In this document: positions 22,588 to 64,000 of the stretch, piece by piece
Numbering within the stretch: position 1 is the stretch's first letter
Layout: the number at the start of each line of letters is the position of its first letter
NCBI GenBank assembly: GCA_963377175.1
Contig: CAUJNA010003287.1
Span: 126,501 to 190,500, forward strand
Length of the DNA: 64,000 nucleotides
Direction: 5' to 3'
Origin: Effrenium voratum
Lineage: Eukaryota > Sar > Dinophyceae > Suessiales > Symbiodiniaceae
Made by a program: the position numbers and the translations under genes
Notes under the pieces: model-generated
Told to the model about the DNA's origin: nothing
The model's input: the letters and a program-made list of their open reading frames with translations, nothing else
Database searches by the model: none

Positions 22588-24222
<1,635 letters not shown>

Positions 24223-24703
24223 GGTTTGCGAGTTCTATAAATTATCCAAGTGGGAGGGAGATCCTCAAAAAATAGGAAACGACCCCTGTTGGTTGGTATT
24301 TAGAGGGATACAACACGAAACCCTCCATTTGAGAGACGAAACCACAGCCGTGACCCCAACACACCAGCGCCGCAAAAAAGGCGATCCGAGGGGTGAAAAC
24401 TCATCACAGAAATGGTTGCCCTTGAATGTCTGGGGTGCTCCCGTTGCCCCCCGAACAAGCAAAAGGTCGCTAGACTTTTTGCAATGGAAAGCCCAGAGCC
24501 TTTGAACGCCTTGGATTTCACACCCGATGAGCCCAAGGCACCCCTCTTCCGGGTGATCCTTCATGCGGCAAATGGATTAACCCATTAAAAGGAAAAAAAA
24601 AAAAAAACACACACAAGAAAACCACAGATGTTCTGAAACCCCAGATGCGTCACCGTACCCCAAGCCTAGAACTTGTTTCCGTTCCTGTTCCTGGTTCATT
24701 TGG

Positions 24704-46685: not shown

Positions 46686-46957
46686 CCGAGCCTCCGTCAA
46701 GAAACCCAGAAAGGGGTGGGTGGGTGGAGCGCACCAAAAATCGGCAGAGTCCAACTTGGGGGAAACCCTTGCAACAAACCTTAACGGGTTGCCTAGTAGC
46801 CACAAAAACCAACCTCTCAACAACCTTTCAAACGGTTTAATCTCCCCTTCAACCTTCACCTCAAAAAGGGTAGCCCGAAAAACATACACGTACATAAATG
46901 GATTGATGAAAGCAATTGAAAGCAGTTGAAGTTCGTCTCTTGTCTTTGGCAATCCCC

Positions 46958-47442
<485 letters not shown>

Positions 47443-47705
47443 GATGAAAGCAGTTGATATCTGTTGTTGCCTTTGGGGCCAAACAAAACAAACATAAGCC
47501 CAGAGAGTATCCCCCACCTCGCACCTTCTTGGAACCTTGCATCCCGGAACCCCTCAACTATCAACCCCAGAATTGCCGGATGGAACCCATAGCTGGGGGG
47601 CAAGCCTAAGTTGTTGGGAAGATCAGGGTTTACCAGACCGCCTTTACATTTCTGTACAGTTCGACCAGGTGAGAGTGGGGGCAGTTCCTATTTGCTGGTG
47701 CAAGA

Positions 47706-48647: not shown

Positions 48648-50277
48648 CTGGAACACCTTTCTCGTTGAAATCCTTGAAACCCTTTCTACGTTTCACCAAC
48701 TGGTGCTAAAACCCTTGAAACTGCCTCAAGTAGACTAAACTTGGTAATGTTAGATAGTTTCGTCAGAGATGATTCAAACAATTGGCCAAACTCTCAGAAC
48801 TTGGGTGGTTTCTGAAAAGAACGATGGGTGTAGAGAATTGGGAATCAACCCTCACGAGACTTCCCTATATTCCCCTCTAAAGATCACCCCAACAAAAGGA
48901 AACATATTTCAAATTGTGGGTGCGTTGTCTAAAATGACAATAAGGAAATATTACAGTAAAACTCTGCTTCTGACTGAGCCAAAGCACCCAGCTGAACCTG
49001 CCCCGATCTCCACATCAAGAGATTATCCTGCAAACTTTCGAGTCTTAAACAAATAGGTGTCTCTGCATAAACCCTTCCAAATGGGTGGTTCCGCTTGAAT
49101 TTCAATGAAAGACACCCTCCAAAAAGAACACACACACACACAAATTCTGCAACCAACCCTGGTGTCTTGGCCCGCATCTGCAGTACTCTGAACCATGTTT
49201 GGTTCTGTTTCAACCCGGAGTCTCCATGGCTTTGACCTTTTAAGAACAAGTCAGTACTCGAAGGAAAGAGGTCACCCCCTTCTGAAAGGGTCAAATGCGG
49301 ACTCCACAAACTTCCATTTGGTTAAGACCCCTGGAAAGCATATTTCACGTAGTGATACATTCCCTGTAAAACCAACAGGGGAAAATGAACAAACATATTT
49401 CAGCAAATGGGTCGAGATTTAATTTGGGATTTTTTGTTGTTTTATTTTGGGATTTGTTTTTGTTTTCCGTCCTGGCTACTAAAATGCTGTAATTTACAGC
49501 ATTTTCTCGCGAAATGTACGTATTTTACGCTAGTCCGTCAACATCATCAGCATCGTTTTCAACATCCCCCGCATATCCAGCCAACATCCCCAGCATCACC
49601 AGCAAATGTAAAAACGTGGCGGCAGCCCCCCCTGAAAAAGTGACGACGGCAGCCCCCCCATGATGATTGAAGAAGTGATGATTCAAAAAGGGCCAAAACA
49701 AATATTAAAAAAAAAGCAAAAACAAAAAAAACAGTGGGGGGGGGGAAAAAATGTAGAAAAGGCTTGTCCTAGGGGGTGGGGGGTAGATGGTTGCCTGTTC
49801 TGTTTTCTTTTTCACATTTCAACGCGTGAACCACCTTATCCGTTTTTTCAAGGCTGATTTTGGGGGCATGAAATAACGATATGGATGTGGTAACGAATTG
49901 ATGATTTGGTCCCCTGTCTCGTTCCAGATTTCAACTTTTAGTTTTATTGATTGAAAGAGGTTAGGACTTTCTGTGGATTCACGGGTTGGCTTTTGGTCGG
50001 GTCTTCTGGTTTGTCATTGTTTTGCCACCGTTCGCCCCGTTGCCACGTCCTCATTGACATCGTCTTCTGTTTCCGTCGGGAGACTCAGACTTCGAATGGA
50101 CGTTTGAGCAGACAAGCTTGAGACCACTTGGTTGAATTGAGTTTTACCATTCGTTGTGCATTCTGAGATGAGGACATTTGAGCGAACGCACTTGAGCATT
50201 AACTGACTTGAAACAACCGAAGCCTTCTGCTTTCAAGCATTCCAAGCGTCCAAGCACTTTTCTATCTTTGAGCAGTC
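48648..50277. other. Non-coding stretch between host exons and intronless ORFs
   Basis: It contains family F and C repeats (49,210-49,405). After about 49,420 no interspersed family was seen. The word cluster ACATTTGAG, CACTTGA and ACTGAC at 50,170-50,210 recurs before the second ORF. Confidence 0.5.
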
Positions 50278-51465
50278 ATGTCTGTCATCGCTTCCGAGAG
50301 CGGGTCAGAGTTTGGCATGAGCCTTGAGGAGATTGAAGCCCTTGAAGTTTCGTCGGTGTCAGAGAGTGAAGAGTTAGAGATTGATGAAGGACTGGAACAG
50401 TATCCAGACGCGATGCTGATTTCGGAAATCCTTGAGATTGCCACCAACCGTGAGAACCTCAAGGGCATCGACATGGAGACGCTCAAGACTTCGAAGGTGG
50501 TGTTGATGAACCACCTTGACTACCTTGAGAAGCATCAGAAGCACTTGCGTCAGGCATTGACCAACGTGAATAAGGAAATCACGGCATTCGAGAAGAAGGT
50601 GATTGATGAGATGAAGGATGAGAAGAAGAAGCAGGCATCCCAAGCGCTCCTAGAGAAGAACTACGAGGAGTTTGAGATTTTCATCCGCCCTGTTGGTTTT
50701 GAATGGTTCTCCACCACATTCACCCTGATGGTTTGCTTGGCTACCACGTTCTCCAACCTGCGTGAGTTGATTGTCTCCCGTCTTCTTTCGGAACTCACGA
50801 AGGTGAAGAAGGTGAGGATCACCCAGAAGGCGCAGGAGGCAATGGAGAAATCCATTAAGCTTACCCATGACATCCTTGACCTGAACCGCCATGGACGCAA
50901 GTCATTGGGCAAGGTCGGAGTTCAGAAGGGCATCACCATTACTTGCTCAATCAAAGGGCGTGGCGGTGGCAAGCGAGCACACTCCTCTCGGGAACAGCCA
51001 GTCAGTGAGAAGGACTTGCGCTTCAACATCACCAACACCATCGGACAGCTTGAGACAAACACGGAGACACCGTTCATCGCCATCATCGTCAGCAAGGTGA
51101 AGGAATTGATGGAAACCATCAATGAGAACCCAAAGAAGAGCGCCACAACGCTCATTTCCAAGCTCGGCAAGAAGCAGTTGAGCACCATCATCACTGACAC
51201 CTTGAACCACTCGACAAGGGTGGCAACAAGGGCACAGTTTGTCGCGGAGAATGTCTTTGATGATGAGTTCAAGACCATCAACAACATCAAGAACTTTTGC
51301 GAGATGACCCAGAACTTGCTGACCAATGTTGTGCTGGTTACCATCGTTTGCGAGTACTCCGAGCCCAACGGTTCCATCGCTTGGTCTGCTTTGACAAGGG
51401 TAGCAACGCAGAAGCTTTCGGAATCCGACGTGTCAGAGAATGGGACCAACTGCTCTGTCTCCTGA
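50278..51465 (+). CDS. Hypothetical protein, 395 residues, intronless
   Basis: An intact ORF with even codon use and no recognisable family. Residues 1-40 are acidic and serine-rich. Residues 70-130 form a charged, probably coiled-coil helix (DYLEKHQKHLRQALTNVNKE). The segment FEWFSTTFTLMVCLATTF near 141-158 is hydrophobic. A Gly/Lys/Arg loop (IKGRGGGKRAHSSRE) lies near 225-239, and the C-terminal half is helical. The first ATG is used because upstream in-frame sequence lacks one. It differs from the viral block in composition and from the host blocks in lacking introns. It could belong to the integrated virus, another mobile element or the host. No function is proposed. Confidence 0.7.
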   Translation: MSVIASESGSEFGMSLEEIEALEVSSVSESEELEIDEGLEQYPDAMLISEILEIATNRENLKGIDMETLKTSKVVLMNHLDYLEKHQKHLRQALTNVNKEITAFEKKVIDEMKDEKKKQASQALLEKNYEEFEIFIRPVGFEWFSTTFTLMVCLATTFSNLRELIVSRLLSELTKVKKVRITQKAQEAMEKSIKLTHDILDLNRHGRKSLGKVGVQKGITITCSIKGRGGGKRAHSSREQPVSEKDLRFNITNTIGQLETNTETPFIAIIVSKVKELMETINENPKKSATTLISKLGKKQLSTIITDTLNHSTRVATRAQFVAENVFDDEFKTINNIKNFCEMTQNLLTNVVLVTIVCEYSEPNGSIAWSALTRVATQKLSESDVSENGTNCSVS

Positions 51466-52017: not shown

Positions 52018-52818
52018 ATGGCTTGTGATGAATGTGTCCAACTACGTGCTCAAATTGAGACACTCCAAAATGAGATGAGAGCAAAGGACTTGGTCATAGC
52101 CAACAACTTTCAGCAAAACCCGCTGTATGAAGAAGACTATGGGCTTAGCTTTGTCTTTACCAAGCGTGCCTGTGAGGATTTGTATTTCCAAAGTTTTGGG
52201 GGTGGCAAGTCCTTCAGTGATGAGGAATGGGTTTTCGTCAAAGACCGGTTCAATGAGTGCATCGCAACACAGGCTGACTATGCGCAGGGTGACTTTGACG
52301 ACTTGAAGCACTACGCCAGAGACGCTATGTGGTATGTGCTAGGTTTTCCGGTATGCGTGCTGTTCTTCAGGGGCGACTTCTACAATCCTCCCATTCGCAG
52401 AATTGATGTTCGCATCACTGTTGGCAACGGCTTCTACGTGACCAACATCACCACCGAAAACATCCTTGAGGTGCTTTGGGAGAAGGAAAAGAACGTGTGG
52501 CTCAAGGAGAACGGCTGGTGCAAGCACGAAATCACCTTGAGGCTCCTGAACACCAGATACAGCGAGGTTGATGACGAGCTTGAAAACTTCGGGGGACACT
52601 TCAACGACCTCTCCGTCAGACACCGCAAGAAGTATTTGCAGGTCAATTCACAGCAGAGCTCTGAACTCAGCTTTGATAGTGGTGACATTTGGGAGAGGCT
52701 GATTGACAGCCCTATCCAGATGAACCTTTACAACAGATTATGCGAATGTGAGCAGGAAGAGAGCGAGCAGGAAGAGTGCGATGATGAGTGCGATGATGAA
52801 ATTATCGACAATGACTGA
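52018..52818 (+). CDS. Hypothetical protein, 266 residues, intronless
   Basis: An intact ORF with no recognised family. It starts MACDECVQLRAQIETLQNEM, a Cys-x2-Cys pair followed by a heptad-like helix. The middle (about 100-190) is alpha/beta-like with many aromatic residues (WYVLGFPVCVLFFRGDFYNP). The last 25 residues are very acidic with regularly spaced Cys (ECEQEESEQEECDDECDDE). Upstream words ACTGAC, CACTTGA and ACATTTGAG are shared with the 395-codon ORF, so the two may be co-regulated. No function is proposed. Confidence 0.68.
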   Translation: MACDECVQLRAQIETLQNEMRAKDLVIANNFQQNPLYEEDYGLSFVFTKRACEDLYFQSFGGGKSFSDEEWVFVKDRFNECIATQADYAQGDFDDLKHYARDAMWYVLGFPVCVLFFRGDFYNPPIRRIDVRITVGNGFYVTNITTENILEVLWEKEKNVWLKENGWCKHEITLRLLNTRYSEVDDELENFGGHFNDLSVRHRKKYLQVNSQQSSELSFDSGDIWERLIDSPIQMNLYNRLCECEQEESEQEECDDECDDEIIDND

Positions 52819-53492
52819 TTGACATGTTCGCTTTACCACTCAACAAAATGAACAGTGTTGGTGGTTCTACTTCATCTGAAAAAAGATGATTACAGACTTG
52901 GAGTTGCAGGGAAAACAAAAGAGTTCGAGCAGTTTCATCTGACATTTGACAGGGTTGGTCTCGATGTTCAAGACATCCTTGAAAGGCAGTTTTTTTTTTT
53001 TTTTTTTGTTTTTTTTTTTTTGAAGGCTTGGAGGTTCTGAGGTTTGATAGGTGAGGCTATCGTTCTGGACACGCTTTTTTTTTGTTCTGTGACACCAACC
53101 CACCACACCCTCCCCTACTTTTGATAGTCTCCGCACCTGCCGCACTCTGAGGTTGTGAAGTCATCGTCCTCATCGACTACGATGCTGTCGCCTTCTAGGT
53201 TCTGGGTCGGGTGGGATGGGAGGGTAGGGAGGGAGGGTTCTTTCCTTAAACTTGTTGTTTAATTGAAAGGGGACACTATCGCCAATTTTCTGTTTCAATG
53301 TTTGTCCCCAAACCCAATTTTCAAGGTTTCTTCCCTCTCGACCCTTCAACTCCACTTTCTGAAAACCCACCAAAACAAGGGCATAATCCGCCATTTCCCA
53401 AATAATCCAAACCCAAAAAATCACAAAATCCATTTCAAGTTCATCACCAACGACCCCAATTTCAAGTTTCAAGCCCAAGCCCAAACCCTCCA
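52819..53492. other. Non-coding junction with homopolymer tracts
   Basis: It has T-runs at 52,990-53,021 and 53,077-53,086, a G-rich stretch at 53,200-53,240 and a C/A-rich stretch repeating CAAGTTTCAAGCCCAAGCCC-like words to 53,490. No gene is supported. Composition changes sharply at its right edge. Confidence 0.5.
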
Positions 53493-53533
53493 CTAAATAA
53501 TTCTAATAATTTCATATTATTAGAATTATTTAG
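53493..53533. terminator. Perfect 18-bp hairpin at the viral block edge
   Basis: The 18-base arm (53493-53510) CTAAATAATTCTAATAAT pairs perfectly with 53516-53533 around a 5-base loop TTCAT. It lies 40 bases beyond the polymerase stop codon and exactly where AT-rich viral sequence begins. It may end the polymerase transcript, as hairpins do in mimivirus, or be part of the element's terminus. Confidence 0.6.
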
Positions 53534-53571
53534 ATATTTAATTTATTGTGTAGTGTCGCGAAGCTCACTAG

Positions 53572-53590
53572 GCTATTGCTTCGCAATAGC
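53572..53590. terminator. Hairpin over the polymerase stop codon
   Basis: GCTATTGC and GCAATAGC pair perfectly around TTC. The polymerase TAG lies inside the stem. It forms a tandem pair with the larger hairpin downstream. Confidence 0.45.
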
Positions 53591-56500
53591 GTAGTGTCCA
53601 TACGGGATTGAATTGAAAGCATCAATATAAAACCTTTTGTTCTCATAATTACTGAGTGATTGCTTGACTTGAGACATTGAATATATTTGATGTGTTTTGC
53701 TCCTGATGAAGTTGTAGGAGATTTCGTGCTTTTTGTTGTGATGCAGTGCTTCATGATAGTTCTGATAGGTCAGTTCCTTCTTCACCTTGTGCTTGACTAC
53801 ACCTTTTGATTTCTTGTGTTCCTCATCCTCGCCGTGGATTGTGAAAGCATAGGATTTAGGTTTCAACCCGATGAATCTAGTAATGATTTTTCCAGTGACT
53901 TCATCTTTGTACATTCCTAAGACCTTCTTATTTGTTGTGTCATGACATGGATGTTCAACAGGATAATCACTAAAATCCATATGTTGCTTGATACCTTGAA
54001 AATCCTTGTAGATATCATCCGTGAAGGTTTGAATTACATAACTGTCAGTATCTGTATATATCAATTTGATATTTTCGTTGTATTTCTTTTTCAACACACC
54101 ATAGTAAAACTCATACATATGTAATTTACTTAAATCAAGAATGGTCATTCCTAAGAATATAGGTTTATCAAGTTTCAAGACCGACTTTGTCTTTTCCACT
54201 CCTACCAGATTTTCATTTATGATAAATCTATTTTTGAATGTTGGATTATTCACACATTTTTCATACCTAACATCATTATCTACCAGTTCAAAATCCATAT
54301 GTTTTCTCTTGTCTTCCATGGTTTTTCCATACACTGCGTTATTCATTAATTTAAACAAATCCTTCTCAAAGTCGCTCTTCGCTTCTTTCCTCTTGCCTGT
54401 GTTGAAGTCAATCCACGGTTTCAACCAAGCCCTCTGTTGAAATTTTATTATCCTATGAACCTTGGTGAGTTTCATACCCATTTTTAGATAATACTGTAAA
54501 GTCTTGATATGAACAACATATTTTTCTTTATCTTTCAAATTTAATATTAACTTGCTGGTTTTCTCATCCTTCGGTTCTTTGTTTCCATAGTAGATTTTGT
54601 AGATTTCCTTTTGATAGTCTGACAACATATTAGCATTGACATTCATTATTTCCGGTGCTAGTGGATAGTCCGAATGGTAGTCATGTAGTGTTTCTGGATA
54701 ATCCAAATCAACTTCCATAATATAACCATACTCATCTTTTTCATCCCACTTTTCAATGTTAGGTGTTTTCTTCGTCCATTTGATGTTCTTTAAAGGCAAT
54801 TTTTGAGACATCGCCAGACCATACAGATTGTTAGCATCTAAGTAATTGATATAACTTGACGGCTTGTTTTCATCGAAGGCTTCATCCATATACTTATTGT
54901 TTGCCTCAGCCAGTTTGTGACTGACCTGACACATGCCTCCTCTCATTCCCTGTTCAACCATCTCATACATTTCTTTATCATGCAACTGCTCAATTTCAAC
55001 ACCAGTTTTCAACAACATAGCTTCCCAAGCGAAGTTAGGAAGCGTATAATAATGAGCGGGGTCCAAACCGTAGTATTCCATACATAAGTCTCTAAAGTTT
55101 TCAAAAACATCAGTCAATAATAAAACGTCGGTTCTCAAATACAAATCGTGATATTGTCCTAATGTTCTAATACCGAAGTGTTTCCAAACCTTTTGTGCCC
55201 TCTCATAATCTTTGTCATTGACATGTTCCTCACTTAATTTACTGTAGAACGCTTCTTTTGGTGGTAAGTTTCTTTCAGTAAATCTGTCAAAACTATCAAA
55301 ATAGTCATAAGGATAAATCCCCTTGTCAGTCAACAAGTCCAAATCTTCATCGGTTTTAACATATGGATTTCTAACACTGTATCTAAAATTGTTCTTCCAG
55401 TTCTCACGCCTTTTATCATCTTCATACTTACTCAACTTTACCAACTTATCCAACGAAGACGATAAGAAGCTAAAACTGTCCTTGAAACAAAGGTTTTTAA
55501 AACCAAAGGTTATGAACTTCTCGCTGTTCTGTGCGATGCAATCGATTTTAGCATTCTTGCTCAGTTCGTGTGCCTTGTTGATGATTAAGTGAGCGTCATA
55601 GTTTTTAAGGTTATGAAGAAAGACTGGTATTTTATAATATCTCATACTGAAAGCAAGATTACAATCATCATGAGCACAACCTCTATATTTACCAGTAAAA
55701 TGGCAATGGTCTCTAACTTTTTTATCCCCTTCCTGAAAGCCCTTTCCACAAACGAAACACTTAGTAGCAGTGTCAAAATCTGTTTTATCGTCCTCAGTCA
55801 TGATTATCTCTTTCACTTCCTTCATTTTCTTTATTACATCATCTCTGACTTCATTCATTTTCTCAACGAACTTATCCATACAATCTTCGCCTCTGTATAA
55901 ATAGGGCTCACTGCTTCCAGTGATGGCATTGACTACATTAATCATAAAACCACAAGGGCGATGATTTTGATATGATGTGGTTGTCGCTTTTGTCGATTTG
56001 CTTTTAACATCAATGGGCACTGTTAAACATTCAAAGTCTGCATATATGACATAAGGCGCTTTCAGTTTCTTAAAATGATTCTTAAATTCAATGGTAGCTC
56101 CTACCTCTGGCATTTCTATTTGTTGTCCTTCAACCGCTAGACAACCCTGTTCTTCGTGTTGTTTTAATAACTCTTCTGACTTGAAACCGTGTGAGCACGT
56201 CCTACAATGATGTTTTTTCCTATTTGATTTGTTGGTTTGGCTTCCCATCAGCTTGTTATAGTTCTTGATGTAGACATAGTGCGAGTTGGCATTTTCTCCA
56301 GTCAGCTTTATTAAATCAATCTTTTGTTGTGCTTGGGGGTTGTTGCTTCTTTTGTATAATAAAATTGTTTTACTATTGGCATCAGGATTGATGTAATAAA
56401 CATTGACCGATATGTGTTTGTTCTGTTCTTCAAATTGTTCAATCTCATCATTGCCTACAGGAAAGTTTATATTGTCCCACTTGATGAAACTATCATTAAC

Positions 56501-57328
56501 ATATTTTTTATAATGATACATATCACAGGGATGGTCTTTTTTGTATATCTCATAAAAACCACATTGGACGGAATATTTGAAACACAACTCATCATTGTTT
56601 TTAATATTGATACAAGCCTTTTTGTTTGCCACCCAGTCGGGCAATGGAATATAAGAAGAGCCACGGGTAGGATTGTATCTGTCATAACTTATCACCAGAC
56701 TTTGAACTTGAAGAAGAACAAGACCCGATTGAATGAATTCGGCTATCTCAATTTGAACCTCTATGTCGTGGGCTATGTTGTTTAAAACACTGTTTATCTC
56801 TTCTGGGTTATGGACATTGTATCTCCTGCTTCTCAGCCTTCGTCGTATCTCTTCGTTGTCAGTGTTCTTTAACGCCAAATCTACTTCAACAATGATTTTC
56901 ATATTCGGGTTTCTGTTCAGGAATTCTACCATTCGTTGCTTCTGATATTTTAAGTATGATAAGCCTTTCATTCCTTTCAATCTTATATCACTAACCGAAT
57001 ATGTGTTGGCGTAGCCTTTGAAGGCTTGCTGTTCATCTGTGATTTTGGATTTGAAACGCTTGACATAATCCTGCAAGGGTCTTCCTCGTGTTAGTTTGAT
57101 GAAGCTAGCCCCTTTCATTAGAAGACTATGTTTTCTGTAACCATCGCTTCTCGCCACTTCCTTTAGTCTGGTATTCAACACCTTCGAAGTGGGTTTGTTC
57201 TTACTGTATCTGTAGGTCTTGTCTCCTATTTTGAGTTTTTGTGTTTGTTTCCCTTCTTTTTGTATTAGTTCACCTTGTTGACTTTTTATAATGAAATCTA
57301 TGATTTTTTCTTCTGACACTGACACCAT
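53573..57328 (-). CDS. polB: Family B DNA polymerase, Polinton/adintovirus type
   Basis: A 1,251-residue replicative DNA polymerase that should copy the element's genome; relatives are protein-primed. Exonuclease motif I is YADFEC (D431, E433), Exo II is LHNLKNYDAH (N573, D578), and an Exo III-like LRTDVLLLTD lies at 731-740. Polymerase motif A is DANNLYGLAM (D831), motif B is KLMNNAVYG (993-1001) and motif C is YTDTDSY (D1093, D1095). All catalytic residues are visible. Extra modules are a C-x2-C-x12-H-x4-C finger (375-396) and a Cys/His cluster, CFVCGKG with HCHFTGKYRGCAHDDC (524-556). The C-terminal IPYGHYAIAK resembles relatives. Residues 1-370 are divergent. The start is the first Met, 35 bases after the shared 15-base motif. 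The ORF is undamaged, so the insertion is young or under selection. Confidence 0.95.
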   Translation of the reverse strand: MVSVSEEKIIDFIIKSQQGELIQKEGKQTQKLKIGDKTYRYSKNKPTSKVLNTRLKEVARSDGYRKHSLLMKGASFIKLTRGRPLQDYVKRFKSKITDEQQAFKGYANTYSVSDIRLKGMKGLSYLKYQKQRMVEFLNRNPNMKIIVEVDLALKNTDNEEIRRRLRSRRYNVHNPEEINSVLNNIAHDIEVQIEIAEFIQSGLVLLQVQSLVISYDRYNPTRGSSYIPLPDWVANKKACINIKNNDELCFKYSVQCGFYEIYKKDHPCDMYHYKKYVNDSFIKWDNINFPVGNDEIEQFEEQNKHISVNVYYINPDANSKTILLYKRSNNPQAQQKIDLIKLTGENANSHYVYIKNYNKLMGSQTNKSNRKKHHCRTCSHGFKSEELLKQHEEQGCLAVEGQQIEMPEVGATIEFKNHFKKLKAPYVIYADFECLTVPIDVKSKSTKATTTSYQNHRPCGFMINVVNAITGSSEPYLYRGEDCMDKFVEKMNEVRDDVIKKMKEVKEIIMTEDDKTDFDTATKCFVCGKGFQEGDKKVRDHCHFTGKYRGCAHDDCNLAFSMRYYKIPVFLHNLKNYDAHLIINKAHELSKNAKIDCIAQNSEKFITFGFKNLCFKDSFSFLSSSLDKLVKLSKYEDDKRRENWKNNFRYSVRNPYVKTDEDLDLLTDKGIYPYDYFDSFDRFTERNLPPKEAFYSKLSEEHVNDKDYERAQKVWKHFGIRTLGQYHDLYLRTDVLLLTDVFENFRDLCMEYYGLDPAHYYTLPNFAWEAMLLKTGVEIEQLHDKEMYEMVEQGMRGGMCQVSHKLAEANNKYMDEAFDENKPSSYINYLDANNLYGLAMSQKLPLKNIKWTKKTPNIEKWDEKDEYGYIMEVDLDYPETLHDYHSDYPLAPEIMNVNANMLSDYQKEIYKIYYGNKEPKDEKTSKLILNLKDKEKYVVHIKTLQYYLKMGMKLTKVHRIIKFQQRAWLKPWIDFNTGKRKEAKSDFEKDLFKLMNNAVYGKTMEDKRKHMDFELVDNDVRYEKCVNNPTFKNRFIINENLVGVEKTKSVLKLDKPIFLGMTILDLSKLHMYEFYYGVLKKKYNENIKLIYTDTDSYVIQTFTDDIYKDFQGIKQHMDFSDYPVEHPCHDTTNKKVLGMYKDEVTGKIITRFIGLKPKSYAFTIHGEDEEHKKSKGVVKHKVKKELTYQNYHEALHHNKKHEISYNFIRSKTHQIYSMSQVKQSLSNYENKRFYIDAFNSIPYGHYAIAKQ

Positions 57329-57362
57329 ATATCTATACTCTATATTATATATAGTAAATATT

Positions 57363-57377
57363 TCTTTAAGTAGTTTT
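57363..57377 (-). promoter_or_regulatory. Shared upstream motif, copy 1 (polymerase)
   Basis: Minus-strand AAAACTACTTAAAGA lies 35 bases before the polymerase ATG and is followed by an AT-rich leader. An identical 15-mer precedes the neighbouring zinc-finger gene. Confidence 0.55.
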
Positions 57378-57427
57378 GGGTAGGGGTTGCCTGTTGGAGA
57401 AACTGGGCTCTGGGTTGAAACTCAACG

Positions 57428-57463
57428 CATTAATCTTATTAATGAGTTTTAATAAGATTAATG
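57428..57463. terminator. Perfect 15-bp hairpin after the zinc-finger gene
   Basis: CATTAATCTTATTAA (57428-57442) pairs with 57449-57463 around a 6-base loop. It starts about 10 bases downstream of the stop codon of the 103-codon gene and precedes the polymerase promoter region, as expected for a transcript end. Confidence 0.65.
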
Positions 57464-57473
57464 ATTTATCCTT

Positions 57474-57785
57474 TCATAAAGGGGGGTTTTTGTTTTTATT
57501 GCATACATTGCTTTTCTTGTGTTTGGATAGGTTGGACTTGCTTGATATCGTCCTTCCGCAGTCCTCGCAGGTGTAAGGCTGTTTTAGGTTTTTGTTGTAG
57601 TAGTTCTGGTGGTAGGTCTTCTGGTCGTCCTTCCATCTCATTAGTTGGTCATCGCTCTCGCTAACCTTCTCGCTCATTCTCTGTAAGACTAAGTCGTTTT
57701 CCGCTTTCATAAGTTCAACCATTACATCAAATTCGTCATTCGTTATTATCTGTTTTCTATTACCATTAATGAAAATTCCTGTCAT
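57474..57785 (-). CDS. Small zinc-finger protein
   Basis: A 103-residue protein with an N-terminal helical half and a C-terminal finger: C73-x2-C76-x12-H89-x5-C95 in YTCEDCGRTISSKSNLSKHK. The finger resembles classical C2H2 fingers with Cys in the last position. It is probably a nucleic-acid-binding factor for viral transcription or replication. The same spacing occurs in the polymerase and in the 167-residue protein. It lies directly upstream of the polymerase on the same strand but has its own motif and hairpin, so it is probably a separate transcript. Confidence 0.8.
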   Translation of the reverse strand: MTGIFINGNRKQIITNDEFDVMVELMKAENDLVLQRMSEKVSESDDQLMRWKDDQKTYHQNYYNKNLKQPYTCEDCGRTISSKSNLSKHKKSNVCNKNKNPPL

Positions 57786-57808
57786 TTTTACTATATTATC
57801 ACGTTTTC

Positions 57809-57823
57809 TCTTTAAGTAGTTTT
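57809..57823 (-). promoter_or_regulatory. Shared upstream motif, copy 2 (zinc-finger gene)
   Basis: Minus-strand AAAACTACTTAAAGA lies 24 bases before the ATG of the 103-codon gene and overlaps the stop codon of the gene before it. Confidence 0.55.
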
Positions 57824-58685
57824 ATTTTTTCTTCTTGCCTCGGCTACTTTTTGTATTTGTGCTTTCTGGGCTTCTGCTCCTACTTCTTGTTTCCATTTGT
57901 TCCCTCGTCCATTCACTACCTCGTGCTATTTCTTGGGGTGAGTTGCTCCTGCTTCTTGTTTCTAATTGTCTTCTGTTCATTTGATTACCTCTTGCTCTTT
58001 CTTCTGGTGAGTGGCTTCTGCTTCTCGCTTCTACCTGTCGTCTTGACCAGAAAGAAGCCCTCGGTTGTTCTTCTTCTTGTTCTCGCGATTGTTCTGATGA
58101 AGTGGATGACTTCTTATCTCGTTGGAATAATTCAAACACACTCTTATCTTCTCCGCCTAAGAATAAGTTTCTTAATGACCTTATTTCTCGACTTTCCTCT
58201 TTCTTCTCTTCCTCTTTCTCGGTTGATGCTGACGATGATGATGTTAAATGAAGACTTTGTAAATCTTCCTGCTTTTCGTCTTTTGGTTCGTCTTCTGGTT
58301 CATCTTCTGACTTTCTATTTTCCTCACTCTTGTCTGTAATTACATCACTGAATTTTTCATCATCTAACTCCTTTGCTACATATCGCGTTGTTTGTGTGTC
58401 TGCCTCATTGTTTTCATACAACTGTGATGTTGGCGGTATTTCATCAAACATTTCTGGCGTCAATTCATGTAATAAAACTTGTTTATCAGTTTGAACCCTA
58501 GCATTCAACCGTAGTCTCCTGTCGTATTTTGAAAGGTCAAAATCGTCAAAGTCTATATCGTTAATTGATGTGTCAAATGCCCGTCTTTCGGGGATGATTT
58601 CAATTTTCAATCTGTGTGTCATCGCTTCTTTCAGCATTTCATCAAAAGTTTTCCTTCTTCTTAATCCATAATATTTATCAGTCAT
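57822..58685 (-). CDS. Acidic protein with C-terminal SR repeats
   Basis: A 287-residue protein. The N-terminus carries LRRRKTFDEMLKEAMTHRLK, related to a segment in the next protein. The centre is Glu/Ser-rich (DEPEDEPKDEKQEDLQ). The C-terminus has about three repeats of the form RSRSxSPEExARG, each followed by a W/M/R-R-Q-x-E stretch, and ends in GKKKK. SR repeats are typical of phosphorylated nuclear RNA-binding proteins, and the basic tail could direct nuclear import. No enzymatic domain is visible. It lies 21 bases after the 321-codon gene on the same strand. Confidence 0.75.
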   Translation of the reverse strand: MTDKYYGLRRRKTFDEMLKEAMTHRLKIEIIPERRAFDTSINDIDFDDFDLSKYDRRLRLNARVQTDKQVLLHELTPEMFDEIPPTSQLYENNEADTQTTRYVAKELDDEKFSDVITDKSEENRKSEDEPEDEPKDEKQEDLQSLHLTSSSSASTEKEEEKKEESREIRSLRNLFLGGEDKSVFELFQRDKKSSTSSEQSREQEEEQPRASFWSRRQVEARSRSHSPEERARGNQMNRRQLETRSRSNSPQEIARGSEWTREQMETRSRSRSPESTNTKSSRGKKKK

Positions 58686-58706
58686 ATTTAAATATTATAG
58701 ATTTTT

Positions 58707-59672
58707 TTATTGTTGAGTTGATGAACTTGGTTTCTGTTTGAAGTACTTGTTATAAACGTTGTCCTTGTAATATGTTTCTAACTGAGTACGAATTCCTTTT
58801 CTTTCTGTTGTGCTTGCATTGTTATATTCATCTAATAATTCTTTGAACTCATCGTATTTATCAGCATTTATTACATTGAATTGATGTAGTTTTGAAATTA
58901 TATTATCCATCATAGTTCCTGGATTTTTCGAAAGATACACCGGCCACATCCACTTTATGGTTTCTAAATAGTTTTTGAAAATTTGTTCATCATCCACTTC
59001 TTCGTTTTCTACATTTTGTAATTCCATCTCGTTCGCTTTTTCGTGCATTTCCATTATTTCAGTATCAGAAATTGTTGTTTGTTTATCATCATCATCATTG
59101 TCTTTACCCTTTTTCGCTGTTGCTGTTTCCTCTATGGGTTCTAAAGGTGGCAGTTCGTCATCTGATGTCATTGAATGAACTATTACCCCTTCAGGTATTG
59201 AACTTGACGATGCTTTATTCAAATCTTCGTGTATGCTTGGACTGAGTTTTTCCCTTTTCTCTCTGACTTGTCTATCTTGTTCTTCAAATGATGCTTGTAT
59301 ATCATTTTCATACTCTTCATATTCTGTCAGTGGACTGTCTGGTGTGGAAAAAGCGGACTTTGAAGAAGACCGGCTGGTTATTCTAGAAGACGATGCTGTT
59401 GTCTCTGCTTTTCTTAATTCCTCCTTTCTTTTCATCGTTTCCTGATTTAGCAATCCTAAGCTGTCCTTGTTGTCCCACTGACTTCCATATTGGTTTAATC
59501 TGTATCTCGTCGCCTTTCTATCTATTACATCTTCAATCGATGGTCTATTCTCATCTTCTACTAATGTTTCTTTTAACAATTCATCATAAGAAGGTCTTAA
59601 GTGTAGCTGTGATTTTAATGAACCTATGGCATGTGGTTTGGTTGTATTCAGTCTATTTATTGATTTAATCAT
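58707..59672 (-). CDS. Hypothetical viral protein, Ser/Glu-rich
   Basis: A 321-residue protein. Residues 1-100 include LHLRPSYDELLKETLVEDEN and a charged helix. Residues 100-220 are serine-rich and acidic, likely disordered. The C-terminal part (KNYLETIKWMWPVYLSKNPG to the end) looks folded and helical. The tail is polar (KQKPSSSTQQ). It may be a structural or scaffold protein. The AT-rich leader TTAATTAATATAAT directly precedes the ATG. Confidence 0.72.
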   Translation of the reverse strand: MIKSINRLNTTKPHAIGSLKSQLHLRPSYDELLKETLVEDENRPSIEDVIDRKATRYRLNQYGSQWDNKDSLGLLNQETMKRKEELRKAETTASSSRITSRSSSKSAFSTPDSPLTEYEEYENDIQASFEEQDRQVREKREKLSPSIHEDLNKASSSSIPEGVIVHSMTSDDELPPLEPIEETATAKKGKDNDDDDKQTTISDTEIMEMHEKANEMELQNVENEEVDDEQIFKNYLETIKWMWPVYLSKNPGTMMDNIISKLHQFNVINADKYDEFKELLDEYNNASTTERKGIRTQLETYYKDNVYNKYFKQKPSSSTQQ

Positions 59673-59700
59673 ATTATATTAATTAATTTAGAAAATAAAA

Positions 59701-60033
59701 TTAATCCGAAATATTCTTAATCATTTCTTCTAAATGTTTCTTTCTTGCTGTGAGTTGTTCTGTTGTCTGTATTCCATCTGGTGAGCGTGTGTTGTCCAAC
59801 TCTCGTCTTATCTTGTCTAACTCCTTTCTATAACTTTCGGTTCTGTTGCTTTCAGCTAAATCATTTCTATACTTTATTAGTGCTCCTTGTGATTGTTTCG
59901 CTTCTATTGTTTCTTTTAATTGTTTAAAATAATTCTTTCTTGAAGCAGCGCCCCACAAATCATTTGAGTCGTAGTAACGTTCTACTTGTGGAGCCCTTTT
60001 AAATTCGACATTTCTATGACTTCTCATAAGCAT
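59701..60033 (-). CDS. Small coiled-coil protein
   Basis: A 110-residue, almost fully helical, charged protein (KQLKETIEAKQSQGALIKYR, then RKELDKIRRELDN). The N-terminus is basic. It has no Cys and no recognised domain. It lies between the second zinc-finger gene and the serine-rich gene with 28-30 base gaps. A TATATATAA string lies in the leader. Confidence 0.7.
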   Translation of the reverse strand: MLMRSHRNVEFKRAPQVERYYDSNDLWGAASRKNYFKQLKETIEAKQSQGALIKYRNDLAESNRTESYRKELDKIRRELDNTRSPDGIQTTEQLTARKKHLEEMIKNISD

Positions 60034-60063
60034 AATTGTTATATATAATAATTAGATTATTAT

Positions 60064-60567
60064 TTAAAACATTGATAAAGTTAATTTATTTATTTTATCT
60101 GATTTATCTTGTTTTTTCTTTTGTTTCAGTTCTTCATAATGTTGGGTTAATAGTTCTGTCGCTGTGGGTTTCTTAATGGTTTCTTTAATAACTTCTTGTT
60201 TAATCTCATTCTTAATTTCTTCTTTTACTTCTGGTTGAATTTTTCTAATATTCTTTTGTGGATTAACTGGTAATAATTCAGTAGGTGCCCCTTTACAATT
60301 TTTAGGATGTGAGTGTCTCAAACTTTTCAATGTCATCTTTTTAGAGCATTGTTCACATTCTACTAATTCAACTTCTTTTTTAGTTCTTGGTAATGCTTTT
60401 GCTTTTGGTAATGCTTTTGCTTTTGGTTCAGGATTGACTTCTTCTGGTTTAACTTCTTCTGGCGTTGGTTCATCAACTGTTTCATTTTGTTCAACAACTT
60501 CATTATTAATAGGTGCTTCTTCTGTTTTAGTTTCATTATTAACATCTACTACCTCAATACTTGACAT
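60064..60567 (-). CDS. Zinc-finger protein with acidic N-terminus
   Basis: A 167-residue protein. Residues 1-48 are acidic. A direct repeat, KAKALPKAKALP, lies at 49-60. The finger VECEQCSKKMTLKSLRHSHP has C71-x2-C74-x12-H87-x3-C91. The C-terminus is a Lys/Glu helix. It is a likely nucleic-acid-binding or regulatory protein. Its finger spacing matches those of the polymerase and the 103-residue protein. Confidence 0.78.
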   Translation of the reverse strand: MSSIEVVDVNNETKTEEAPINNEVVEQNETVDEPTPEEVKPEEVNPEPKAKALPKAKALPRTKKEVELVECEQCSKKMTLKSLRHSHPKNCKGAPTELLPVNPQKNIRKIQPEVKEEIKNEIKQEVIKETIKKPTATELLTQHYEELKQKKKQDKSDKINKLTLSMF

Positions 60568-60614
60568 ATAATATATTCTATATATTTTCTATATGGAAAA
60601 ATTAAAGAATATAT

Positions 60615-60836
60615 TTAAATAATATCACTTTTAACAAACAATAATGAAAATGAACAATTCACTCCATTTAAATTAATTTCATTTCCTAATGAATTACTAA
60701 TCCAAAAATCTAATTGTTTAAAGCTTCTATTTGATACATCCAAGTAATCAAGAGGGTTCAACTCATTATCAAAGACAATTCCCGCGTGTGGTGCTGTGAC
60801 TGGTACTTTCTTAACAACTGTGCTATCACCCGGTTC
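60615..60836 (-). pseudogene. C-terminal remainder of the penton-like gene, shifted frame
   Basis: After the stop of the 214-codon frame, a different minus-strand frame stays open for 73 codons. It includes PHAGIVFDNELNPLDYL, DVSNRSFKQLDFWISN and GVNCSFSLLF, which read like the expected end of a capsid jelly roll. The two frames differ by one base at about 60,837. The cause may be a real mutation in the integrated copy, a sequencing or assembly error, or +1 ribosomal frameshifting. Confidence 0.7.
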
Positions 60837-61470
60837 TTAAATTTACTTGATTATAATTAGACAATTGAGAAGAATGAATATAAATATTTCTAATGGGTTG
60901 AAGATTAACGAAACCAGAAACATAAGGATTATTATATTGATAAACTACCATTTGATAATTTCCTAAAACTTCATTAGCAGATTGCAAGTTATTAGCATCA
61001 AAAGTTCCATTCCATATATAATCCGCATATGTTAGTTTCATTTGTTCATCAGTTAACACAGCGAACTTTCTATCGGCATAGTTTGAATAAATTGTTATTT
61101 TATTAGTTTTCACACTGTAAGTAACTTCATAAGTATTTGAGAAATTAGTATTATCTACAACACCATTTATTTTTGACTTTAATTCTGTCGCTAGTTCTGT
61201 GCCAGTATATACTCCTTCGTCCAATTGTAACGCTAAATAATGGACATTTGTGTTATCTTCATCTGGAACTAACGGAGAAGAATAAAAGTATAATATATTA
61301 TTTAATCCTGACTGTATTGAATACCACGAGTTAGGTAATGTTACTTCGTGAATGTAGCAATGAACTCCGTTGTCTGTTTGTAATGTTTCCGGCAATTCAA
61401 CTCTAAAATTTGATGATGTACCACTAATTCTGTGAGCACTGTCAATATAAACTTTTTTATAGGTGAGCAT
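60826..61470 (-). CDS. Penton/minor-capsid-like protein, frameshifted
   Basis: The 214-residue frame begins MLTYKKVYIDSAHRISGTSS, followed by NFRVELPETL and IHEVTLPNSWYSIQSGLNN. Opening patterns of this kind are found in single-jelly-roll vertex proteins of Polinton-like and adintovirus-like elements. It would sit at the five-fold vertices of the capsid. It stops just after SQLSNYNQVNLRTG, whereas homologous-looking sequence continues in another frame to 60,615, for a total near 284 residues. It is transcribed divergently from the lipase-like gene, with only 39 bases between the two ATGs. Confidence 0.75.
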   Translation of the reverse strand: MLTYKKVYIDSAHRISGTSSNFRVELPETLQTDNGVHCYIHEVTLPNSWYSIQSGLNNILYFYSSPLVPDEDNTNVHYLALQLDEGVYTGTELATELKSKINGVVDNTNFSNTYEVTYSVKTNKITIYSNYADRKFAVLTDEQMKLTYADYIWNGTFDANNLQSANEVLGNYQMVVYQYNNPYVSGFVNLQPIRNIYIHSSQLSNYNQVNLRTG

Positions 61471-61509
61471 TATTAATTAATTGAGAAATTAATTTATAAC
61501 TTTAACTAT
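61471..61509. promoter_or_regulatory. Divergent promoter region
   Basis: Thirty-nine bases separate two divergent start codons. They are almost wholly A/T, with TTAATTAATT-gag-AAATTAATTTA forming an inverted repeat. Both promoters must overlap here or extend into the coding sequences. Confidence 0.5.
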
Positions 61510-62169
61510 ATGATTAATAATAAAAAGTTAATTTATGAAATGAAGCATGGTAAAATTAAAGATTATCAACCTTACAAGAAATCAATTAAAATAACTGACA
61601 TTATGAAACAAACTGACAAAATATTAAATAGTTATTATCCTAATTCAAATTTAACTGATGCACAAGGGTTAAGTAGAGCATATGGCAATGGTAAAGGTTT
61701 TTATATTGATGGTGATAAAATGTATATAAGCGGAACATTTGGAAAAGGAACGTTTGGAGGTGCTGTTAATGACATTCTGGCGGATGTAGGACTTCCCTTT
61801 AAAATGACAAAATATTCACAACGATATAAAGACACATCAACAGCATTGGATGAAAACAATGAAGTTAAACATCTTATAACACATAGTCTCGGTTCAAGTG
61901 TAGGGGCACAAATAACAAAAGATTACCCTGAAAGAGAATTAACTTTAACCACTTATGGAGCGCCGTTTATATCACGAAGGTCTAAAATTACCGATGATTA
62001 CATTAATTTTAGAAGTATCTTAGACCCTGTCAGTATTGCTGATCGTGGCGCTATAACTGTTTATACTGGTTCATTAAATCCATTTACTAACCACGATTAC
62101 ATAACTGGATACGGTGATATGGGGCGTGATGTTTCAAGAAGTATTGAGCCAGTAAAGGAGATATTATAA
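61510..62169 (+). CDS. Lipase-like alpha/beta hydrolase
   Basis: A 219-residue protein with a class-3-lipase-like nucleophile elbow, THSLG (S126), after a hydrophobic strand (HLITHSLGSSVGAQITKDYP). Asp172 in ILDPVS and His195 in FTNHDY complete a plausible Ser-Asp-His triad. The segment LTTYGAPFISRR fits the strand after the nucleophile helix. It would act on lipids, perhaps to breach a membrane during entry or exit. Its position between penton-like and capsid genes suggests that it is packaged. The N-terminal 90 residues have no clear domain. Confidence 0.75.
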   Translation: MINNKKLIYEMKHGKIKDYQPYKKSIKITDIMKQTDKILNSYYPNSNLTDAQGLSRAYGNGKGFYIDGDKMYISGTFGKGTFGGAVNDILADVGLPFKMTKYSQRYKDTSTALDENNEVKHLITHSLGSSVGAQITKDYPERELTLTTYGAPFISRRSKITDDYINFRSILDPVSIADRGAITVYTGSLNPFTNHDYITGYGDMGRDVSRSIEPVKEIL

Positions 62170-62187
62170 ATAATCTAAATAATATTA

Positions 62188-62412
62188 ATGATACATCATA
62201 AGAAATATGACAATGAAACAACGGATGATATGATTAAGAATGAAAATAAAAAGTATAAGAAAAGTTCATATGAAGAAATTAGAGAATTAGTCTTGGAGAA
62301 AGAAAAAGGTAATACTCCAGTTGAAGATAAGATTAAGAAAAAGAAAATGAAAATATTCAAAAATAATAATTCTAATCAAAAGGATCACACTAAATTATTT
62401 AATTTAGTTTAA
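62188..62412 (+). CDS. Small basic protein
   Basis: A 74-residue Lys-rich protein (KYKKSSYEEIRELVLEKEKG and KIKKKKMKIF). The SSYEEIRELVLE segment resembles PSYDELLKETLVE of the 321-residue protein. It may bind DNA or capsid. It lies 18 bases after the lipase-like gene. An 8-bp inverted repeat overlaps its stop codon. Confidence 0.62.
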   Translation: MIHHKKYDNETTDDMIKNENKKYKKSSYEEIRELVLEKEKGNTPVEDKIKKKKMKIFKNNNSNQKDHTKLFNLV

Positions 62413-62430
62413 ATTATTTCTAAATTAGAT

Positions 62431-62440
62431 TATATATATA
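62431..62440 (+). promoter_or_regulatory. TATATATATA before the capsid gene
   Basis: A ten-base TA run ends three bases before the capsid ATG. Similar TATATATA or TAATATA strings occur just before most genes of the viral block, including the partial gene at 63,891. This could be a late-promoter element. Confidence 0.4.
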
Positions 62441-62443
62441 GTA

Positions 62444-63826
62444 ATGGAAACTTTTAGTGCTGAAGATATTCTAATTGACAACCTCTCATTTAAATTAAAT
62501 AAAGGTGCAAGTTATATCAACGACCGTCGTTCTGTCTCGTTTTTTCCTTCTGGGAGTAATATCTACACTCCTTCATCAGGCCAGCGTGTGTTGAAAATAG
62601 CGTTAAATGCTGAAGATAATAGTTGGTTAGACCCACAGAGTGTAATGGTTTATTTCACTGTTGAAAACACTGACACGACAGACAATAAACGCTTGCGTCC
62701 TCTGTCTCCTGCTTATTCCTTTTTTAGAAGAGTAAGACTAATTGCTGGTAATCAACTTGTTGAAGACATTGATTACTACAACCGAAATCATCATATGATG
62801 AGTTGTTTGATGTCAAAAGGAGCAAGAGACAATGAAGACGCCCAGAGTTTTGGTTATAGATATGATGATGATTTAAACACACGTCGTGCAGTTCCTGCAT
62901 CGGGTCATATTGGTCCTGCATATGACGCTTACACAATTCCCGGTTTTAGAAGAAAAATGGTTGTTGGATTTAAACCGATGCTTGGTTTATTCAATCAATT
63001 TAAGTATATTCCGTTAAAAGCGTGTCCTCTTGTTTTAGAACTTGAACTAGTTTCAAATTTTAGTGATTGTGTTGTTACAGTTGGTGGTACGAGGTTTCCA
63101 GAAAGTGGCAACGCAGACTCAAGCCTTCATACAAATGAGCAGTTCTCAATTAGTAACGCATTCCTTCAAACTGATTTGGTTAGCTTGGACAACGACCTCC
63201 ACAATAAATATGTTGCTCACCTCCTCGATTCAAAAGAATTACCTATTACGTATAATACTTATATTTGTCAATCTAATCAAGTTCCCGTTGGTTCGTCGTC
63301 AATTAACACTACTGTTGTTCGTTCAGTGTCTAAACTCGTTGCCGCGTTCATCAGTTTCAACAAAAGTGGAGTAGGCGATACTCACGTTATGAAAGAATAC
63401 AACAATTTCTATCATCCTATGTATAATTTGAATTATCAAGACAGTGGATACTACAATGCCGACCTTGATTTAGAATTTCAACTTCAATTAGGTTCAAAAC
63501 TATATCCTGAGTATCCTTGTCGTTCATTAACACAAGCATTCTATTATTTACGAAAAGCATTAAATTTACCATTGTTCCATCAACACCATTTATCAATTGA
63601 ATATTCTGCTTATCGTGTTGATAAGTTTATCTTTGCTATGAATTTCGAAAAGGTGCCGGATTCTTCATATTCTGGAATTAACACTAAAGCCGGACAACAG
63701 CTTCTAATTCGTGTGAAACCTATTGGAAATATGGCAACAGCAAATATGCCTGACACGATTTACATAACATTAGTATCAGAACAAATATTATCCATTAGAG
63801 ACGCCGGAGTGCAGATACTCGATTAA
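62444..63826 (+). CDS. Major capsid protein, double-jelly-roll type
   Basis: An intact 460-residue protein interpreted as the hexon-like major capsid protein. Diagnostic-looking stretches are SVSFFPSGSNIYTPSSGQRV (about 30-49), WLDPQSVMVYFTVENTD (61-77), LRPLSPAYSFFRRVRLIAGN (84-103) and QLVEDIDYYNR (104-114). A second jelly-roll half follows, with YRVDKFIFAMNFEK near 395-408. The length fits capsid proteins of Polinton-like and adintovirus-like elements. Assignment rests on remembered patterns and gene context. It is followed 10 bases after the stop by a perfect hairpin. Confidence 0.82.
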   Translation: METFSAEDILIDNLSFKLNKGASYINDRRSVSFFPSGSNIYTPSSGQRVLKIALNAEDNSWLDPQSVMVYFTVENTDTTDNKRLRPLSPAYSFFRRVRLIAGNQLVEDIDYYNRNHHMMSCLMSKGARDNEDAQSFGYRYDDDLNTRRAVPASGHIGPAYDAYTIPGFRRKMVVGFKPMLGLFNQFKYIPLKACPLVLELELVSNFSDCVVTVGGTRFPESGNADSSLHTNEQFSISNAFLQTDLVSLDNDLHNKYVAHLLDSKELPITYNTYICQSNQVPVGSSSINTTVVRSVSKLVAAFISFNKSGVGDTHVMKEYNNFYHPMYNLNYQDSGYYNADLDLEFQLQLGSKLYPEYPCRSLTQAFYYLRKALNLPLFHQHHLSIEYSAYRVDKFIFAMNFEKVPDSSYSGINTKAGQQLLIRVKPIGNMATANMPDTIYITLVSEQILSIRDAGVQILD

Positions 63827-63835
63827 AAATAAGTA

Positions 63836-63874
63836 AAAATGATAATATTAAAAATAAATAAATATTATCATTTT
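63836..63874. terminator. Perfect 14-bp hairpin after the capsid gene
   Basis: AAAATGATAATATT (63836-63849) pairs perfectly with 63861-63874 around an 11-base loop. It lies between the capsid stop codon and the next TATATA-ATG, as expected for a transcript end. Confidence 0.68.
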
Positions 63875-63890
63875 CTACTATTAATATATA

Positions 63891-64000
63891 ATGCCTTCAA
63901 TAAATTTAACAAACTTTGAGAATGTTGTAGCGCACACAATTAGCGAAATCAATTCTACAAGCGGGGTGACAAACATTAGAAACATATATGCTAATCAATC
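63891..64000 (+). CDS. Partial gene, cut by the window edge
   Basis: A new open frame starts at ATG directly after TTAATATATA and is open to the window end (36 codons). It begins MPSINLTNFENVVAHTISEI. By its position after the capsid hairpin it is probably a further virion or packaging gene. The family cannot be told from this fragment. Confidence 0.6.
   Translation, partial: MPSINLTNFENVVAHTISEINSTSGVTNIRNIYANQ

Follow-up and report, generated by a model that had tools for sequence, protein, structure and literature searches.

The window analysed here, a 64,000-nucleotide stretch (positions 126501-190500) of contig C3105 from the 1,155,904,702-base assembly in which all genome searches were made, holds the left part of a 23,197-bp element that very probably represents a dinoflagellate virus-like element of the Polinton/Maverick type in complete form. 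An initial annotation had proposed an integrated, largely intact Polinton-type DNA virus at this locus, and this proposal is upheld by a type B DNA polymerase (PolB), an rve integrase, an A32-type ATPase, paired terminal inverted repeats (TIRs), target-site duplications and many copies. The element starts at window position 49747 and ends 5.4 kb beyond the window, at position 9043 of L009, the stretch of C3105 that directly follows it. A TIR-terminal 24-mer at C3105:176247 and C3105:199443 marks both outer ends, and window 49747-50018 matches L009 8772-9043 in inverted orientation over 272 bp with 98.2% identity (5 mismatches); on contig C1684 the TIR reaches 1.14 kb. These ends replace the edges 53493..64000 assigned at first and bring in two more long open reading frames (ORFs) on the left, while extension past position 64,000, which had been suggested as a check, reaches a packaging ATPase, an rve integrase and the second TIR.

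Gene content and extent of the element

The features of the element, in window coordinates unless L009 is named, are as follows.

49747..50018, no strand: left TIR; partner at L009 8772-9043; outer end abuts a G run
50278..51465, + strand: cargo ORF, 395 aa; C-terminal CSVS (CaaX-like); GC content at third codon positions (GC3) 0.70
52018..52818, + strand: cargo ORF without assigned role, 266 aa
53271..53490, no strand: segment of ~220 bp beside the cargo gene, present in many copies
53493..53533, no strand: perfect palindrome with 17-bp arms
53573..57328, - strand: PolB, protein-primed type, 1251 aa, open; endonuclease-VII-like insert
57474..57785, - strand: C2H2-finger ORF, 103 aa; finger below the Pfam cut-off
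57822..58685, - strand: SR-rich ORF, 287 aa
58707..59672, - strand: ORF without assigned role, 321 aa
59701..60033, - strand: ORF without assigned role, 110 aa
60064..60567, - strand: finger-like ORF, 167 aa; Cys/His pattern judged by eye
60826..61470, - strand: minor-capsid (penton)-like ORF, 214 aa; judged from appearance, without database match
61510..62169, + strand: lipase-like ORF, 219 aa; GHSLGS-type stretch (HSLGS) by eye
62188..62412, + strand: ORF without assigned role, 74 aa
62444..63826, + strand: major-capsid candidate, 460 aa
63891..64000 (start), ending at L009 2726, + strand: S74-type fibre gene; C-terminal S74 chaperone domain, E 2.8e-9
L009 4645-5400, - strand: packaging ATPase; Pox_A32, E 2.3e-11, 44.1 bits against a cut-off of 22.8
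L009 7036-8016, - strand: rve integrase; PF00665, E 6.5e-10, 39.6 bits against a cut-off of 32.6
L009 8068-8688, + strand: 206-aa ORF inside the right TIR

PolB is intact, as had been claimed: its frame is open, and the exonuclease and polymerase motif residues are invariant across 10 sequences. Of 7992 candidates scored in the PolB search, 5104 were retained; PF03175 is carried by some of the 120 relatives listed and is not called by Pfam in the window protein itself. Residues 521-559 form an endonuclease-VII-like zinc/HNH insert that falls below the Pfam cut-off in the window PolB and for which PF02945 is precomputed in some of its relatives. Cys 249 and His 350, at the place expected for a possible vOTU domain, do not vary, a reading of this region that follows the part of PMC11071308 drawn on here. 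The window PolB has no helicase match and no PDB relatives of note.

The capsid gene, likewise described as intact, is open in the window, and 90 of 92 scored genome copies (96-100% identical; the best matches out of 4488 first-look candidates) have no internal stop, leaving two that do. The candidate has 447 relatives at E <=0.001, the 120 listed coming mostly from ENA contigs, and its own 90% cluster comprises 297 sequences. IMG/VR scans and tblastn of phage records gave no free relatives. DDE-like residues are present in the integrase. Small genes, including those for the C2H2-finger and SR-rich proteins, are present as annotated. For two further genes the ORF stands and the label is less secure: the penton-like assignment depends on appearance, and the lipase-like ORF, with its HSLGS stretch, has no lipase match in Pfam.

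The AT-rich block noticed at the outset is real, with a GC content of 29-37% in 2-kb windows from 53001 onward against 50% in the host part of the window. Neither a GC step nor the edge of a palindrome is an element edge, however, and host-like composition is compatible with a gene of a mobile unit. A left edge at 53493 was rejected because the TIR lies at 49747; the palindrome at 53493-53533 was rejected as a hairpin telomere on the same ground and because its left arm is the start of a methyltransferase gene; and the segment at 53300-53490 is no plain host repeat, since it is located inside the TIRs. A host repeat array with G-run units flanks the insertion on both sides (window ~49650-49745 and L009 9060-9900). 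An Rfam scan of the window gave no match.

Copies, host and insertion sites

The terminal 24-mer occurs at 80 genome places at <=2 mismatches (reversed-pattern control, 0), and pairing of ends by hand yields 25 TIR-bounded elements on 25 contigs, 21.4-24.5 kb long with a median of 22.7 kb. In PolB tails of up to 536 codons, sampled at 30 loci from 28 places with the window's own among them, pooled dN/dS is 0.042 over 29 loci, and dS is 0.08-0.35 for most loci and ~1.4-1.7 for eight. Purifying selection has thus maintained lineages of quite different age, which is what one would expect of functional elements that continue to generate copies. Eight capsid genes show 56 synonymous and 2 nonsynonymous changes, a count biased by their being the best protein matches. 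The copies on C3105 and C3301 are 98.9% identical over the left 3.4 kb and 99.6% over the right 2.0 kb and have unlike flanks right at the TIR edge; near-identity at separate sites indicates that spread has been recent.

The host is a dinoflagellate. The genome contains 251 exact copies of the dinoflagellate spliced leader, including a tandem array on C722, against 0 for the reversed control, and COX1 is present in many fragmentary copies, similar to dinoflagellate COX1. Contigs C1 (4.9 Mb) and C2223 (3.7 Mb) each carry a complete, open, high-scoring COX1 and probably derive from culture-associated bacteria.

An assembly error that joined a free virus or contaminant to host contigs, which had been named as a refuting possibility, is highly improbable. 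The GC contrast between block and host would suit such a join, and the assembly does hold bacterial-looking contigs, yet it would have to account for 25 TIR-bounded copies on as many contigs, for readable 5-bp target-site duplications and for the different flanks around the near-identical C3105 and C3301 copies.

The duplications, within the 5-6 bp that characterise Polintons, are CCCCG on C1684 and CCCCT on C3301, two of the five elements for which both ends were read; the remaining three (C3105, C3034 and C3245) sit in G runs, where a duplication is compatible but unreadable. GGGG or CCCC lies <=6 nt from the terminal T run at 30 of 31 distinct element ends, the exception being CCCGG; the 31 ends represent ~26 insertions, five of which contribute two ends, and the count strips the leading T. 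Background frequencies of G4/C4 are 668/16368 (4.1%) in the host DNA of the window and, at a distance of 150-1400 nt, 257/6229 (4.1%) in the flanks of the elements themselves. The association could instead mean that insertions survive in low-complexity DNA, where they do no harm, or that a repeat family happens to bear the copies, rather than that the integrase targets such tracts. The abundance of G/C tracts and repeats in the host genome near the window insertion fits this view, which we nevertheless think rather unlikely given that the tracts stand so close to nearly every end, yet are at background level a short way out. Searches of open-access papers turned up no report of a G/C-tract preference for Polintons; one low-complexity GAGGG duplication is set aside as probably spurious in PMC12220804 (section 10, the portion used here).

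The region between PolB and the left TIR

From PolB to the left TIR extends a cargo bay, and copies whose PolB is similar differ in what it contains. Comparison of 27 places, without duplicate loci and one partly masked locus, gives 160 pairs with >=93% identity between PolB tails, and the adjoining 1 kb is shared to <35% in 121 of them, to 35-80% in 26 and to >=80% in 13. The integrase side varies too, but between two forms: at 30 TIR loci, the distance from the integrase start to the TIR core is ~86 nt in 14 and ~915 nt in 12, with the start out of reach in four, and all 91 pairs are alike among 14 loci chosen for full alignment. In two of the 12, L061 and L062, what lies ~915 nt inside the TIR core is just a short piece of the integrase start; since L061 marks an element's left end, integrase sequence has been copied to the PolB side.

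At the PolB boundary of the bay lies the palindrome, a mirrored methyltransferase start. Its left arm is the beginning of a C5 methyltransferase gene on the reverse strand, broken off after ~9 codons in the window copy. The start, MKLLELFSG, is kept in 26 of 30 left loci; the frame runs to ~200 aa at four places (five loci) and elsewhere breaks at different points, after ~9-40 or ~104 codons. The methyltransferase counts among the cargo; an intact one matches PF00145 (31.6 bits against a cut-off of 22), and a second one falls below the cut-off.

In the window, the bay holds the 395-aa and 266-aa ORFs, with GC3 of 0.62-0.70 as against 0.13-0.55 in the core genes. Three insertions that differ in their right flanks (C3105, C3301 and C2424) share the 395-aa cargo gene, the 266-aa ORF recurs in two other insertions (L010 and L012), and the C1684 cargo includes a GIY-YIG nuclease ORF. 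The 395-aa protein, which has no relatives in the protein database, contains a ubiquitin-like stretch ending in RGGG, recognised by eye only and without a Pfam match. Together with the L030 and L025 cargo proteins as queries it defines a family, found at 31, 76 and 69 genome places, respectively; 169 of the 176 matches lack an internal stop, and identity is 17-38% for most. Merging gives 155 places, 28 of them in the bay of a known copy, although the bays tested cover <=0.06% of the genome; orientation is the same in all 27 scorable bay-located places. A CaaX-like end (CSVS, CVFQ, CVMS, CVIC, CAMS, CLIM or CVLM) is found in 7 of 10 family ORFs, which were chosen partly by these ends. A less biased count takes in 61 ORFs from the left part with a length of at least 120 aa, of which 8 have Cys at position -4. 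The family members already named, together with a near copy, account for seven of these, and the remaining one (L036, CFIQ) overlaps a family match on C167.

Proposed cycle, alternatives and relation to known elements

We posit that PolB would copy the linear genome from a TIR-bound terminal protein, that the capsid, minor capsid, ATPase and fibre proteins would make particles, and that the rve integrase would insert the new copy, all as expected from their families. Judging from the anatomy of the elements, co-resident copies may swap cargo through template switching or recombination. The exchange would take place between the TIR and the palindrome where PolB adjoins the methyltransferase, a palindrome that would become single-stranded during strand-displacement synthesis, and would explain why the PolB side stays constant, why methyltransferase starts are broken and why one cargo occurs at three sites. 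In the weakest step of this scheme, the cargo proteins would act at membranes in conflict with the host or with rival viruses, a guess prompted by their divergence, host-like composition and membrane-anchor motif. The bay would then be an exchangeable effector slot: hypervariable, host-like genes encoding ubiquitin-like membrane proteins, probably prenylated, would pass from copy to copy at a fixed palindromic junction and travel with the virus into G/C tracts; we regard this extended proposal as possible but doubtful. If true, it would provide a eukaryotic counterpart of the defence/counter-defence hotspots of phages and satellites.

Several observations weigh against these interpretations. 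The capsid candidate has no sequence match in the PDB, and 13 of 30 PolB tails contain a stop or a frame-breaking gap. A Ulp1/adenain-type maturation protease, the cysteine protease that extension of the contig had been expected to reveal, is unrecognised among 20 ORFs at E up to 1, where a divergent one could escape, and we provisionally class the element as Polinton-type with its protease unrecognised. As for the cargo, Pfam ubiquitin passes the cut-off in three of nine ORFs, is below it in one and is absent from five, including the window's, and for 127 of the 155 family places the bay test shows no link to an element; they may lie in copies outside the lists used, in other lineages or in the host. 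It is quite possible, if short of probable, that the bay genes are passengers with no viral role: genes of the host, or other transposons, that inserted into decaying copies or became trapped in them. The unlinked places would then find a ready explanation, as would the host-like GC3 of the window cargo and the methyltransferase broken at the junction in several copies, yet such passengers would hardly be expected to have the same position and orientation at every one of the 27 places that could be scored, to include one cargo intact at three insertion sites, or to remain free of internal stops in 169 of 176 matches despite their low identity.

Adintoviruses are distinguished by an adenain-type protease and an animal host; with the former unrecognised and a protist as host, the adintovirus-like label given at first is not supported. 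That the element is an adintovirus or belongs to a wholly new virus group appears improbable to us: the 460-aa capsid has no named relative in the searches made and the gene mix is unusual, yet every Polinton hallmark tested is present except the protease. Widen et al. reportedly described, in 2023, nematode Mavericks that carry non-core cargo genes, with a host and cargo different from those considered here.

Polinton/Maverick elements and rve-type protist Polinton-like viruses have PolB, an rve integrase, TIRs and sizes of 15-30 kb or more, and the same sources also mention methyltransferase genes (PMC10120064, PMC12220804). Our element shares with these viruses PolB, integrase, TIRs, size, many copies per genome, GC below that of the host and an S74 fibre. 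It differs in that rve integrase duplications are typically 6 bp (PMC12220804), rather than 5 bp in G/C tracts, and in its variable PolB-side bay with ubiquitin-like/CaaX cargo, which the same portions of PMC10120064 and PMC12220804 do not describe for protist Polinton-like viruses. OmPLV of Oxyrrhis marina has in common a dinoflagellate host, a length of ~25 kb, TIRs, low GC, an A32 ATPase, GIY-YIG and a protease that is absent or unrecognisable; as presented in the part of PMC12721341 used, it has a helicase-PolB fusion and a tyrosine recombinase and lacks an rve integrase and duplications, whereas here PolB is unfused and both integrase and duplications are present. Maverick repeats are likewise found in the dinoflagellate genome of Breviolum minutum, for which the portion of PMC11071213 consulted gives repeat-level chromatin and 5-hydroxymethyluracil data and no gene map for comparison. 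The EMALE virophages of Cafeteria resemble our elements in being endogenous, in occurring as several types per genome, in their mosaic structure with a recombination breakpoint and in their short duplications, but are reported in the section of PMC8547959 used to insert without sequence preference, unlike the 30 of 31 ends that abut G4/C4 here.

As to the suggestion that the locus represents a new group, dinoflagellate Polinton-like elements are already in print (PMC10120064, PMC12721341 and PMC11071213, as far as drawn on here), as is a 'Dino group' of capsids (Bellas) to which the present candidate may belong. Endogenous dinoflagellate elements of this type that are present in high copy number and have TIRs, S74 fibres and methyltransferases are a known kind; what is new within the open-access literature, as far as our searches show, is the G/C-tract preference together with an exchangeable bay carrying this cargo family. 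If our reading is right, the element is a Polinton-type virus with a defined target preference, testable with one protein and one DNA substrate, and the many cargo alleles in one genome could show whether such viruses carry effectors for conflict with the host or among viruses. Dinoflagellates, in which Polinton-like elements are abundant, include coral symbionts and bloom formers.

Two minor observations concern other parts of the sequence. Long (GT)n-type tracts at window 22400-24300 and 46900-47500 are open in several frames and represent low-complexity DNA, not genes. An N-terminal LP..I..YxLG pattern, F-box-like as judged by eye and unmatched in Pfam, recurs in ORFs at L009 3025-3573, 3714-4223 and 8068-8688 and in L035; one of these ORFs is located in the TIR and hence occurs at both ends of the C1684 element.

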